Source: a virus. From it: a stretch of DNA of 25,788 nucleotides. A model generated the notes under the pieces. That model searched no databases. It saw only the letters and a program-made list of their open reading frames with translations, and was not told the DNA's origin. Shown here piece by piece: positions 7,520 to 25,788 of this stretch; the first letter of the stretch is position 1, and each line of letters starts with the position of its first letter. The DNA lies in the IMG/VR virus record IMGVR_UViG_3300020596_000096, positions 1 to 25,788 of that record; one strand, 5' to 3'. A program made the translations under genes and the position numbers.

Positions 7520-7813
7520 CTACTTGTTTTTGTACCTGGAAACCATTTTGGTGGCCTCTTTAGCCGCGTCTTCTTCAGGTGAAAGCTTAGGTTCATCCTC
7601 TATAGCCACGGCTTCTTCTGAAAGCTTAGGTTCAACTGGCTCGTCGACAACATTCTGGTAGCACTTACCAAACGTGCTCGCAAGAATGGCTTGGCCTTCT
7701 TCATCGGGGACATCCGCTACTTTACCAAGTTCAAAGGCCCTGGTCCCGAATTTAGTTTGCACGATCATATCGGTCTGCCCTGGACGGGCTGCGGAAACGA
7801 GTTTTAATTGCAT
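7520..7813 (-). CDS. small acidic hypothetical head-neck protein
   Basis: I do not recognise this 97-residue protein. Residues 1-55 look folded (MQLKLVSAARPGQTDMIVQT, then FELGKVADVPDEEGQAILAS). Residues about 56-85 are acidic and low in complexity, with the hexapeptide EPKLS(E/P)E twice, 13 residues apart. The C-terminus is basic (SRYKNK). It sits between the zinc-ribbon gene and the gp6-like connector, 9 bases upstream of the latter. The ATG follows GAGGA at good spacing. Position suggests a head or neck accessory role, but nothing in the sequence shows it. Confidence 0.65.
   Translation of the reverse strand: MQLKLVSAARPGQTDMIVQTKFGTRAFELGKVADVPDEEGQAILASTFGKCYQNVVDEPVEPKLSEEAVAIEDEPKLSPEEDAAKEATKMVSRYKNK
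7580..7634. repeat. 16-bp direct repeat pair inside the acidic hypothetical gene
   Basis: The 16-base string TGAAAGCTTAGGTTCA occurs at 7580-7595 and again at 7619-7634. The copies are 39 bases (13 codons) apart, so they are in frame and encode the repeated EPKLS peptide. This looks like a small tandem duplication in a flexible linker. Confidence 0.8.
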
Positions 7814-11722: not shown

Positions 11723-13081
11723 CTAGAGGATGTTCCTACCGAGGACAACGGATGTCTCCGAAGCACTCTGTGGCAAGCCCTTGAAATCACCTCTCCACCA
11801 GGATGCCAGCAACCAGCGGTCTCCTGGAGGCGTTGGATCCATCGAGGCGCGAACACGGATGGGACGACGAACGCCCCACATGAAGCGGCTGCGGTTGACC
11901 AACATAACACTGGAGAAAGTGCTGAGCAAAGCTGCGTTAACACCGGCTGCGGTCAAGTCGTCGCGTGAATACTCGCTGATGACGATGGGGATACCATCGA
12001 GAGCCGCGAGTGCCCCGCGAAGGATGGTCGCGTTCGGGCCAAACTTCTCGACTGTGCTGACTTCAGGCAGTGCGAGAAATTGGTTATAGATCTTGGAGGA
12101 AACCAACCAGGTCAAGTTCCGTTCAGACACACCAAACTTGCCCATCATGACTCGCATGGCGCGAAGGTTAGCAACCGTGACTGCGGCTGCTGAGAAGTTG
12201 ACCGATGCAGAGTTGGCCAAAGCCAATTTGCGAAGACCCTTCCAAGCCTTGCGAGCATCGGTCGCTGCGGTAACGTCTGCGTCCATGTGAGGACCAGTGG
12301 TGTCGCCGTTCATGATGGCCGCTTCCCAAGCTCGTGCTTGAGCAGTGCTGACTTCACCGCGCACGAGTGCGAGGATCTGCACAGCCGAATCTTCGTTGAG
12401 TTCTTCTGGCAAGCACATCGACTCTACAAGCTTGGTAGCCTGAAGGGTTAGCTTGCTCGTGCCGAAGCTGGCCGAAGCGATGTTGTCAGCAGGGTCGCAA
12501 GACTCTGGCTGAATACGCGCTTGGGTAACTGCGGTTTGGATGGGCACATCAAATGGACTTGAAGGCATGTTGATCGTTTTGAATTGATCGACCACTTGGC
12601 GGTCGAGTTCAAATTCTTCGATGAATTGGCTGGATACCATCGTTGGTACCCACTCATCACCGCCACCCACGACGGTGGACCCGAAAGCTTTCAGCTTTGG
12701 TGCAAGCACATGCTTGGCGAAGTAGCTCCCGTCAACGATACCTTTGACGTGCCCAGGCATGTCGCCGCTGTCGCGTTGCTCGCCGTGGAAAATCTGTTGG
12801 TTGAGGCGCGAGATGTCGAAATCTCTTTTCAGAGCAACAACAAGCGTCTTCAGTTCTTCAGGAACGCCCTTGAAATCAGGGTGCCCAGTGTTGACTTCCA
12901 GAAGTTGTTTTACGGAACTTGCACCGAAGTAACGGAGAGCGCGGCTCTCGTCACTGTTGACGTGCGAAGTTGCTTTGGTGCCAGCTGCCAAAGCAGTAAC
13001 CGTATCTTGTTCAGCTTTCTTGGCCGCGTCTTCCGCTTTCGTTACACGCGCTTCAAGAGCCTTAATTTCTTCTGGTGTCAT
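11723..13081 (-). CDS. major capsid protein, HK97 fold
   Basis: This 452-residue protein follows the prohead protease, as in HK97-type phages. Residues 1-30 (MTPEEIKALEARVTKAEDAA) form a coiled coil like the delta domain, which acts as an internal scaffold and is removed by the protease. Residues about 140-200 contain GDEWVPTMVSSQFIEEFELD and NMPSSPFDVPIQTAV, a typical N-arm/E-loop region of the HK97 fold. Later parts include LRAMRVMMGKFGVSERNLTW, LDGIPIVISEY and RFMWGVRRPIRVR, matching the P and A domains. The start has a perfect AGGAGG, consistent with the most abundant virion protein. A terminator follows the stop. Confidence 0.9.
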   Translation of the reverse strand: MTPEEIKALEARVTKAEDAAKKAEQDTVTALAAGTKATSHVNSDESRALRYFGASSVKQLLEVNTGHPDFKGVPEELKTLVVALKRDFDISRLNQQIFHGEQRDSGDMPGHVKGIVDGSYFAKHVLAPKLKAFGSTVVGGGDEWVPTMVSSQFIEEFELDRQVVDQFKTINMPSSPFDVPIQTAVTQARIQPESCDPADNIASASFGTSKLTLQATKLVESMCLPEELNEDSAVQILALVRGEVSTAQARAWEAAIMNGDTTGPHMDADVTAATDARKAWKGLRKLALANSASVNFSAAAVTVANLRAMRVMMGKFGVSERNLTWLVSSKIYNQFLALPEVSTVEKFGPNATILRGALAALDGIPIVISEYSRDDLTAAGVNAALLSTFSSVMLVNRSRFMWGVRRPIRVRASMDPTPPGDRWLLASWWRGDFKGLPQSASETSVVLGRNIL

Positions 13082-19188: not shown

Positions 19189-19434
19189 CTACACCCTCCA
19201 AAGTTGTTTATGCAGGCATACACTCATACACACCCCACTTGCTACCACCAAGTTGGTGAGGTTCTTGAAGGTAGAATTATCCACCAAAGCCTTGTCTATA
19301 GCGTGACCACTCTCGGCATCTGAGTGCCACTGCCTCACAAACTCCACCCGCGCTAGATCTCCTTCAGTTCTCATTTCAGTTCTCATTTCAGTTCTCATTT
19401 CAGTTCTCATTTCAGTTCTCATTTCAGTTCTCAT
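19189..19434 (-). CDS. hypothetical protein with six N-terminal MRTE repeats
   Basis: The 81-residue frame begins with six copies of MRTE, encoded by a perfect 12-base tandem repeat, then GDLARVEFVRQWHSDAESGH and a hydrophobic patch (FKNLTNLVVASGVCMSVCLH). The first ATG follows GGGGAGGAG at good spacing; the other five ATGs lack their own ribosome site but are in frame. The TAG is separated from the next gene's ATG by one base, so translation is coupled. I know no family. It could be a leader that keeps ribosomes flowing into the RHH-like gene. Confidence 0.45.
   Translation of the reverse strand: MRTEMRTEMRTEMRTEMRTEMRTEGDLARVEFVRQWHSDAESGHAIDKALVDNSTFKNLTNLVVASGVCMSVCLHKQLWRV
19363..19434 (-). 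repeat. six perfect 12-bp tandem repeats carrying start codons
   Basis: The unit ATGAGAACTGAA (minus strand) is repeated six times without a mismatch over 72 bases. Each copy holds an in-frame ATG and encodes Met-Arg-Thr-Glu. The array lies directly after a strong Shine-Dalgarno sequence. Confidence 0.95.
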
Positions 19435-19455
19435 TTCACTTCTCCTCCCCTTCGC

Positions 19456-24566: not shown

Positions 24567-24814
24567 AGCAAGGGTGCAATCCGTATAGGACAAACTACAA
24601 AAAGACAGAGGAGCTCAGTGAGTACAACCGTATTTGCCCAGGATCTTACTGCGGTAGGAGTCGGTATCTTGACGAGGCCGACACCATCTTGGAGGTCAAG
24701 GTGGAGCGGTGCGCCAGGTGCGTGGAGAAACGCGGCGAGCTCAGGGCCAAGCCGATCAAGCAGCGGTCAGGCGTCTATGTTTTTCCTGAGAGAAAGGTGG
24801 GGGGTAGACTATGA
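24563..24814 (+). CDS. hypothetical cysteine-containing small protein (83 aa)
   Basis: The ATG overlaps the upstream TGA as ATGA, with GAGGAGGG upstream. The 83-residue, strongly basic product has cysteines at C5, C25, C30, C50 and C53 (CPGSYC, then CARC), so a small zinc-binding fold is plausible. It is followed by another ATGA overlap. No family is recognised. Confidence 0.6.
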   Translation: MKQGCNPYRTNYKKTEELSEYNRICPGSYCGRSRYLDEADTILEVKVERCARCVEKRGELRAKPIKQRSGVYVFPERKVGGRL

Positions 24815-24840
24815 GCATGGACCGAATGAGCATGGACCGA
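24811..24840 (+). repeat. 15-bp tandem duplication with duplicated start codon
   Basis: ATGAGCATGGACCGA occurs twice in tandem at 24811-24825 and 24826-24840, and the next codon is again ATG. It is the second small gene in the window whose start region is a tandem repeat. Confidence 0.9.
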
Positions 24841-25053
24841 ATGTGCCAGGAATTGAAGTTGATGAATCGTCTTTTGATTCAGGAAGTGTTTCGACTTGAG
24901 ACAGGTCGGGATACTGAAGCCGCGCAAAAAGAGTTAAACGCGGTAGCTAAAAATATGAAGAAATCGCCAGTGGCGGATTTGATGGGGATATCACATGAAG
25001 AATACAGCGGAGTGGATGCTAACGGTTCGCCGATACGCGAGGCTGTGCAGTGA
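24811..25053 (+). CDS. hypothetical protein with duplicated N-terminus (80 aa)
   Basis: The ATG overlaps the previous stop as ATGA, with GGTGGGGGG upstream. It begins MSMDRMSMDRMCQELKLMNR: a perfect 15-base direct repeat encodes MSMDR twice, so two start codons lie in frame. The rest is helical (LLIQEVFRLETGRDTEAAQK, LNAVAKNMKK) with a tail EEYSGVDANGSPIREAVQ. The 3' end overlaps a possible membrane ORF in another frame. No family is recognised. Confidence 0.6.
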   Translation: MSMDRMSMDRMCQELKLMNRLLIQEVFRLETGRDTEAAQKELNAVAKNMKKSPVADLMGISHEEYSGVDANGSPIREAVQ

Positions 25054-25277: not shown

Positions 25278-25432
25278 CGTGTGATGCTATCAGAGTAAAA
25301 ATTGCAGAGTTAAAAAATACGCTAACAAAGATGAAAGAGGAGACTAGCCGTAATGGAATCAAGCAAGTGATCCATGCATATGAGCTGTTGTTGAAGGGAA
25401 AAGAAAGAACAGAGAGGGAAAGTAGCAAATGA
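25274..25432 (+). CDS. hypothetical small helical protein (52 aa)
   Basis: The ATG overlaps the upstream TGA as ATGA, and its own TGA overlaps the next ATG the same way. The 52-residue product (MTCDAIRVKIAELKNTLTKM, then KEETSRNGIKQVIHAYELLL) is almost entirely charged helix, probably coiled coil. It is short but fits the overlap chain exactly, which supports translation. No family is recognised. Confidence 0.55.
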   Translation: MTCDAIRVKIAELKNTLTKMKEETSRNGIKQVIHAYELLLKGKERTERESSK

Positions 25433-25683
25433 TCGACAAAGAAGCGTTTCGCTGGGAGTGTGCGAAGGCCGCGATGCAGGCGATTCTAACGTATGGCGGA
25501 GCATTGCCGGGATCTATTGGTCTACAAAACGCTGTTTTGTATGCAAACGGGCTTATTGCCGAACTCGAAAAAACAGCGCCGAAGCCCACCACAATTCAAG
25601 ATATTATTGATGGGAAAGTAGAGGTCAGTTGCGTGCACGTATACCCCGGCGGTGGATTACCATGTGTCATTTGTGGAGGTTGA
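25429..25683 (+). CDS. hypothetical protein (84 aa)
   Basis: The ATG overlaps the upstream stop as ATGA, with AGAGGG upstream. The first 50 residues are helical (MIDKEAFRWECAKAAMQAIL, LQNAVLYANGLIAELEK). The last 20 have three cysteines (CVHVYPGGGLPCVICGG), a pattern that may bind metal. Similar short proteins occur in phage early regions, but I cannot name a family. Confidence 0.6.
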   Translation: MIDKEAFRWECAKAAMQAILTYGGALPGSIGLQNAVLYANGLIAELEKTAPKPTTIQDIIDGKVEVSCVHVYPGGGLPCVICGG

Positions 25684-25686
25684 ATC

Positions 25687-25788
25687 ATGACATCTGCAAT
25701 GCTTAGAGCTGGTTCGTCGTCGTGGTCGTGGTCGTGGTCGGCGTCGTCGTCGTCGTGGTCGGCGTCGTCGTCGTCATCTTCGGTGTCG
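25687..25788 (+). CDS. Ser/Trp-rich low-complexity protein (3' end cut by window edge)
   Basis: The ATG at 25687 has a consensus GGAGGT six bases upstream, so it is very likely translated. It begins MTSAMLRAGS and then consists only of Ser, Trp, Ala and one Val up to the edge, almost all from TCG, TGG and GCG codons. The frame is open at the edge, so full length is unknown. The repeated Ser-Trp unit suggests an unstructured or beta-stacking chain. I do not recognise a family. Confidence 0.6.
   Translation, partial: MTSAMLRAGSSSWSWSWSASSSSWSASSSSSSVS
25714..25788 (+). repeat. TCG/TGG/GCG trinucleotide low-complexity tract
   Basis: From 25714 to the edge the plus strand is built almost only of TCG with TGG and GCG, with no adenine until 25776. 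The period is three bases. The array continues past the window. Confidence 0.9.

Follow-up and report, generated by a model that had tools for sequence, protein, structure and literature searches.

The window that we analysed is a viral contig of 25,788 bases, whose record itself ends at position 25788, and its terminase, portal, head, tail, primase and helicase genes mark it as that of a tailed phage. Behind the helicase gene, a run of small rightward genes extends to the right end of the window and includes the 5′ part of an open reading frame (ORF) for a small Ser/Trp-repeat protein (25687..25788, plus strand), the 34 visible codons of which, MTSAMLRAGSSSWSWSWSASSSSWSASSSSSSVS, reach the contig end without a stop. 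The ATG start codon (25687-25689, plus strand) follows, at a spacing of 6 nt, a Shine-Dalgarno sequence, GGAGGT (25675..25680, plus strand), that lies inside the last codons of the preceding small ORF (25429..25683, plus strand, with its TGA stop at 25681-25683), which is not Sm-like and provides context only. The first nine codons (25687..25713, plus strand) specify a leader, MTSAMLRAG, that fits the family leader described below. A preliminary description of this DNA had pointed to the consensus ribosome site and ATG and had taken the frame as meant to be translated; the site is indeed perfect, and the frame looks like a real translated gene.

From residue 10 onward, a TCG/TGG/GCG array (25714..25788, plus strand), defined by Tandem Repeats Finder (score 99, 21-bp period) and by codon counts, encodes SSSWSWSWSASSSSWSASSSSSSVS. 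Its 25 codons specify 18 Ser, 4 Trp, 2 Ala, and 1 Val residues and, as had been noted beforehand, nothing else, with Ser encoded by 16 TCG, 1 TCA, and 1 TCT codons, Trp by TGG, Ala by GCG, and Val by GTG. TCG thus makes up 16 of these 25 codons, a density far beyond chance; no other run of 25 codons in the contig has more than 5. Ser alternates with a second residue (X) in the first units, after which the register slips by one codon. The ORF contains a single Arg, and no residue in the array is charged. The other readings mentioned in the preliminary description are also present, in that the other frames encode Arg/Gly and Val and the complement encodes Asp/His. We rejected an antisense Asp/His protein, which would overlap the 3′ part of the ORF at 25429-25683 and would leave the leader and the ribosome site unexplained.

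The ORF at 25429-25683 had no relative in the viral collection searched, an exact search with the start region of the window ORF matched no other viral contig, and a tblastn search with the repeat protein (the query carrying two extra Ser residues) gave no match, probably owing to low-complexity filtering. The sole blastn match of the right end to phages, an Asp/Glu-rich gene of BcepSaruman, is antisense and unrelated. None of the relatives of the window's helicase (L126-L131) displays the array, their contigs stopping short of it or lacking it; in the helicase-region relative L127, an Ala/Ser/Tyr/Asp-rich low-complexity ORF (12179-12894) also runs off the contig end. Repeats occur elsewhere in the window as well. 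A 12-bp repeat (19363-19444; 6.8 copies, 98% matches) lies in a minus-strand ORF (19189-19434) that has no Pfam match and whose protein begins MRTEMRTEMRTEMRTEMRTEMRTEGDLARV, the start codon itself being tandemly repeated, and a 15-bp repeat (24811-24843) duplicates a gene start, MSMDRMSMDRMCQELK, so that two genes of the contig have tandemly repeated start regions. A 42-bp direct repeat (7555-7634, about 85% matches) lies inside a minus-strand ORF at 7520-7813.

Probable membership in a class of Ser-X reading frames

When viral contigs were scanned for Ser codons alternating with Trp codons, a check that the preliminary description had proposed for phages, many small ORFs composed of a short leader and an array came to light. 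They form a widespread class from uncultured phages in which Ser-X units, with X usually Gly, Arg, or Trp, make up an array behind a nine-residue leader, M-N/T-x-A-I/V/M-L-R-x-G. With a leader profile built from the relatives, the window being left out, the start of the window ORF scored 15.2 bits over a match that spans nine residues only, and it ranked first of the 1951 starts in the window, the next scoring 7.4 bits. Among 124,850 starts in the other loci, 96 scored at least 15.2 bits; 87 of these 96 precede Ser-X arrays, and most of the remaining 9 precede looser or truncated arrays. A leader-like start, MSAAVLRTG, was also seen in L183, where it is followed by ordinary sequence.

An array that is mostly TCG, slips out of register, and lacks the Gly/Arg alphabet might also be a trinucleotide microsatellite, a (TCG)n slippage tract open by chance and unrelated to other phage genes, and Ser/Trp-reading tracts of other origin do exist in viral contigs. 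Against this stand the consensus ribosome site and the top-ranking leader, which was found in none of 16 unrelated Ser/Trp-reading tracts taken as a control from a separate pattern scan (scores of −2.4 or lower, or no start); none of their loci has the Sm-like gene described below. A further locus, L004, joins a similar array to both the leader and the Sm-like gene: its 99-aa Ser/Trp/Pro/Ala ORF is intact, with MNAAILRLG as leader and a stop codon at its end, and begins next to the stop codon of an upstream Sm-like gene (HMM E value, 7e-25). Like that of the window, the L004 array is Ser/Trp-rich and lacks Gly and Arg, and L004 bridges the window ORF to the Ser-X family. We therefore regard a microsatellite as improbable.

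In the window, as in the class, the leader directly precedes the array and essentially one Ser codon is used (TCG for 16 of 18 Ser residues); in the relatives, Ser codon purity is at least 95% in 48 of 50 arrays. Strict Ser/X alternation is typical of the class and not required, L004 departing from it, and the visible part of the window array keeps its first units in register before the one-codon slip. With Ser, Trp, Ala, and Val at X, the window array falls outside the Gly/Arg/Trp subtype. We concluded that the window ORF very probably belongs to the phage Ser-X repeat class, as a divergent Ser/Trp/Ala version that lies outside this subtype and is cut by the contig end. Intact, stop-terminated ORFs of the class occur in independent assemblies as well as in an annotated phage genome that is circular, which contradicts the sequencing artefact considered earlier.

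A coupled upstream gene with a predicted Sm/LSm fold

The arrays have only one widely recurrent same-strand neighbour, an upstream gene for a protein with a predicted Sm/LSm fold (here called the Sm-like gene); no other gene recurs beside them. A second search used the upstream protein alone as the query, so that the array was not presupposed, and yielded 90 loci, of which 79 were viral (of 260 relatives) and 11 were in genome assemblies. Strict Ser-X arrays made up 67 of the 85 downstream ORFs read, and most of the other 18 were looser Ser-rich arrays, were taken in another frame through the script's choice of start, or were short. The stop codon of the Sm-like gene overlaps the start codon of the repeat ORF, as ATGA or GTGA, in 62 of the 67. 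In a few loci, among them L183, L185, and L201, a family A Sm-like gene (see below) has no Ser-X array directly behind it. Several tandem Ser-X ORFs, many with their own start, were seen in L012 (up to 13 frames), L034, L063, L086, L116, and L192, and the X alphabet of L063 is wider than usual.

The pair is found in only one annotated phage genome, MW202573.1, which is circular and in which the two genes (UOF78857.1 and UOF78858.1) lie near a repressor gene on the opposite strand. A planctomycete contig of 649 kb has a prophage-like copy, with RusA and ArdC-type genes nearby. Neither family HMM detected an Sm-like gene anywhere in the window, which thus does not display the two-gene cassette. 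This is not exceptional, because an Sm-like gene lies no more than 900 bp upstream in 24 of 41 Ser-X loci taken from the pattern scan, and another 13 likewise lack it although there is space for it. Nor is the position of the array at the contig edge unusual, since 11 of the 79 viral contigs end inside the array, compared with 1.0 expected (Poisson P of about 1e-8). Contigs therefore often break in these arrays, and the simplest view of the window edge is that the assembly broke within the repeat; genes of this kind will be cut or missed as a result.

The upstream proteins fall into two related families, A and B (profile comparison E value, 3e-7); family B (...YIYTGKLVGVNDSCVKLEDA...) replaces family A upstream of the Ser-X ORFs in L012, L023, L096, L102, and L125. 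The preliminary description had stated that such a chain has no known phage role, and the libraries agree: two relatives of the repeat protein had no PHROGs match, and the upstream protein had no Pfam match at an E value of 0.1 or better, no PHROGs match, and no NCBIfam match above the cutoff. In structure models of moderate confidence (pLDDT, 78 for family A and 74 for family B), an N-terminal helix precedes a five-stranded bent sheet, as in the Sm fold, and Sm/LSm proteins make up almost all of the top 50 matches in the PDB for both families (best Sm/LSm E values, 1.7e-3 and 6.6e-4; probability, 1.00). Viral matches in the fold comparison include DUF6948 proteins and one protein named Sm-like. 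The upstream protein of the relatives is thus predicted to have an Sm/LSm fold. Most members of family A have GRG at residues 96 to 98, between strands 92-96 and 100-106, and we infer that this Arg-Gly between strands 4 and 5 occupies the Sm2 motif site of Sm proteins; the GRG is replaced by NLG or SLG in L075 and L094 and is not seen in family B.

Array composition and the level of selection

In the relatives, X is Gly 575 times, Arg 490 times, and Trp 437 times, with other residues rare, and its codon is almost always NGG. The Ser codon is uniform within each array and differs by locus, being TCG, TCA, TCT, or AGC, and no single substitution can exchange TCN for AGC without losing Ser. This maintenance of a Ser-X protein across unrelated Ser codons (TCN or AGC) speaks against the earlier suggestion that selection may act on the DNA as well. 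So does the variable base of NGG: 45 arrays have 15 or more such units, and the least frequent N was A in 31 of them, C in the other 14, and T or G in none; in 44 of the 45 only A or C was lacking, which amounts to a choice of Arg codon (the sole exception, L177, lacks G as well as A). Arg is encoded purely by CGG or purely by AGG in 55 of 58 arrays. The missing base is thus the one that distinguishes two exchangeable Arg codons, with Trp and Gly kept, which points to selection on the protein alphabet; judged from these sequences, selection acts on the composition of the protein rather than on a motif in the DNA.

The order of the X residues is near random (pair ratios, 0.92 to 1.11); words recur in excess at P < 0.01 in 8 of 44 arrays, which points to a degree of segmental duplication. 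Unrelated X orders were seen in L143 and L144, the flanks of which are 92% and 96% identical, and L154 and L157 have different arrays behind upstream DNA that is 99.8% identical, comparisons that rest on metagenome assemblies; identical arrays in separately assembled contigs (such as L215/L216 and L176/L180) favour the arrays being real. Across these loci, composition is conserved and order scrambled. Within arrays, variation is about 4-5% at synonymous positions and 55% at the first base of X; of the six positions in the hexamer, one is highly variable and the other five hardly vary. We attribute the nearly frozen synonymous bases to repeat-unit turnover, against which selection for balanced composition works at the first base of X; a dedicated diversification process is a less likely source of the pattern. 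The monotony of the synonymous bases argues against a protein-level account alone and needs such turnover as an explanation. A diversity-generating retroelement was rejected because such an element, whose reverse transcriptase copies a template repeat, varies adenines only, whereas 29 of the 45 arrays lack A at the variable base; in a general survey of same-strand neighbours, the only widely recurrent one was the Sm-like gene.

Rows of NGG codons could also act at the codon level, causing peptidyl-tRNA drop-off or serving as a rare-tRNA sponge, so that the array would be a translational brake and the peptide a by-product. The almost exclusive use of NGG at X in the relatives fits such a role, as does the fact that GGG accounts for 541 of 575 Gly codons in the arrays and for 78 of 404 in the Sm-like gene next to them, and NGG codons close to the start reportedly lead to peptidyl-tRNA drop-off (PMC12204400). 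However, any N would do for this purpose, yet the rarest base was A or C in 45 of 45 arrays, and the window uses TCG and GCG besides TGG; we consider a codon-level action very improbable. We give the same low credence to the repeat acting as DNA or RNA, with an incidental frame, for example as an mRNA platform offering an Sm-like site every 3 or 6 nt or as a recombination array. Five nearly invariant positions of six, with one highly variable, would suit this role, as would the fact that Sm-like proteins generally bind RNA, but the unit varies by locus (TCGNGG, TCANGG, TCTNGG, or AGCNGG) while the Ser-X chain is constant, and the start codon, frame, and leader are conserved.

Proposed function and comparison with known systems

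We marginally favour the view that the window holds the start of a gene for a disordered Ser-X protein, of a class normally coupled behind an Sm/LSm-like gene, that would serve as a flexible partner of the Sm-like protein and RNA. Having no hydrophobic core and consisting mostly of Ser with interspersed Trp (and, in the relatives, Arg and Gly), the repeat chain would be disordered and multivalent, with Trp and usually also Arg as sticky residues and Ser and Gly as spacers. Early in infection, the repeat protein might bind, tether, or condense the Sm-like protein together with its RNA, and the cassette would then correspond, split over two genes, to the Sm/LSm proteins with disordered tails. 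In the window, whose copy is a Ser/Trp/Ala version, any Sm-like partner would lie beyond the contig end. Translational coupling to the Sm-like gene suggests a tethering or condensing partner of its product, and early expression fits because the pair in MW202573.1 lies near a repressor gene and the window ORF lies behind the helicase gene; the tethering or condensing of the Sm-like protein and RNA is nevertheless a tentative proposal, to which we assign rather less than an even chance. Against the favoured reading, the Gly/Arg alphabet usual in the class is missing from the window array, which also runs out of register, and no Sm-like gene was found in the window. The weakest rival, a short cationic membrane-active peptide of the Trp/Arg type used in lysis or host takeover and not a partner of the Sm-like protein, would match the net positive charge (~0.13 per residue) and 12% Trp of the relatives and is the least probable reading, given the coupling to the Sm-like gene, the lack of another recurrent neighbour, and the single Arg and uncharged array of the window version.

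A more far-reaching reading of the partnership, which we think unlikely, is that of a new phage ribonucleoprotein system, in which an Sm-like protein would work with a separate disordered chain of Gly, Arg, and Trp on Ser, the order being rerandomised faster than the flanking bases under a fixed alphabet, through a process, dedicated or under strong selection, that diversifies one base in each hexamer, and the window ORF would be a Ser/Trp/Ala offshoot. The broader class merits more interest than the divergent, cut copy in the window. The upstream Sm-like family occurs in hundreds of contigs of uncultured phages (260 relatives in one scan), and the cassette offers a natural test of whether the composition of a disordered protein alone is enough for function.

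The two-gene cassette was absent from the family libraries and papers searched. PDB entry 3by7 is an Sm-like metagenomic protein, presumably of cyanophage origin. Fold comparison suggests that it and the phage DUF6948 proteins share the Sm-like fold with the upstream protein of the relatives, which differs from them in having no Pfam match at an E value of 0.1 or better; no repeat partner of 3by7 or of DUF6948 proteins was described in the papers found. Eukaryotic SmB, SmD1, SmD3, LSm4, and LSm14 have Arg/Gly-rich disordered tails and so share with the phage cassette an Sm-like core and a low-complexity Arg/Gly/Ser chain, but their tail is part of the same polypeptide, whereas in the phages the chain is encoded by a second gene, is Trp-rich, and alternates strictly with Ser.

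In the papers searched for the cassette or for such repeat proteins, the only close parallel was the study of Borgs, in which Sm ribonucleoproteins carry amino acid tandem repeats (PMC9879509). Both systems combine an Sm-like protein with a fast-evolving, in-frame tandem-repeat disordered region on an extrachromosomal element; in the Borgs, which are archaeal elements, the repeat is the N-terminal part of the Sm protein itself and has units of 4 to 17 residues (PMC9879509), whereas in the phages it has two-residue units and is encoded by a gene of its own that overlaps the Sm-like gene. Sm-like proteins with tandem-repeat disordered regions (Borgs) or Arg/Gly tails (eukaryotes) are thus known already, and what is new, by the family libraries and papers searched, is the separate coupled gene, the two-residue unit, and the fixed three-letter alphabet. 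The pairing of an Sm-like protein with a disordered repeat, known from Borgs and eukaryotes, would thereby extend to phages.
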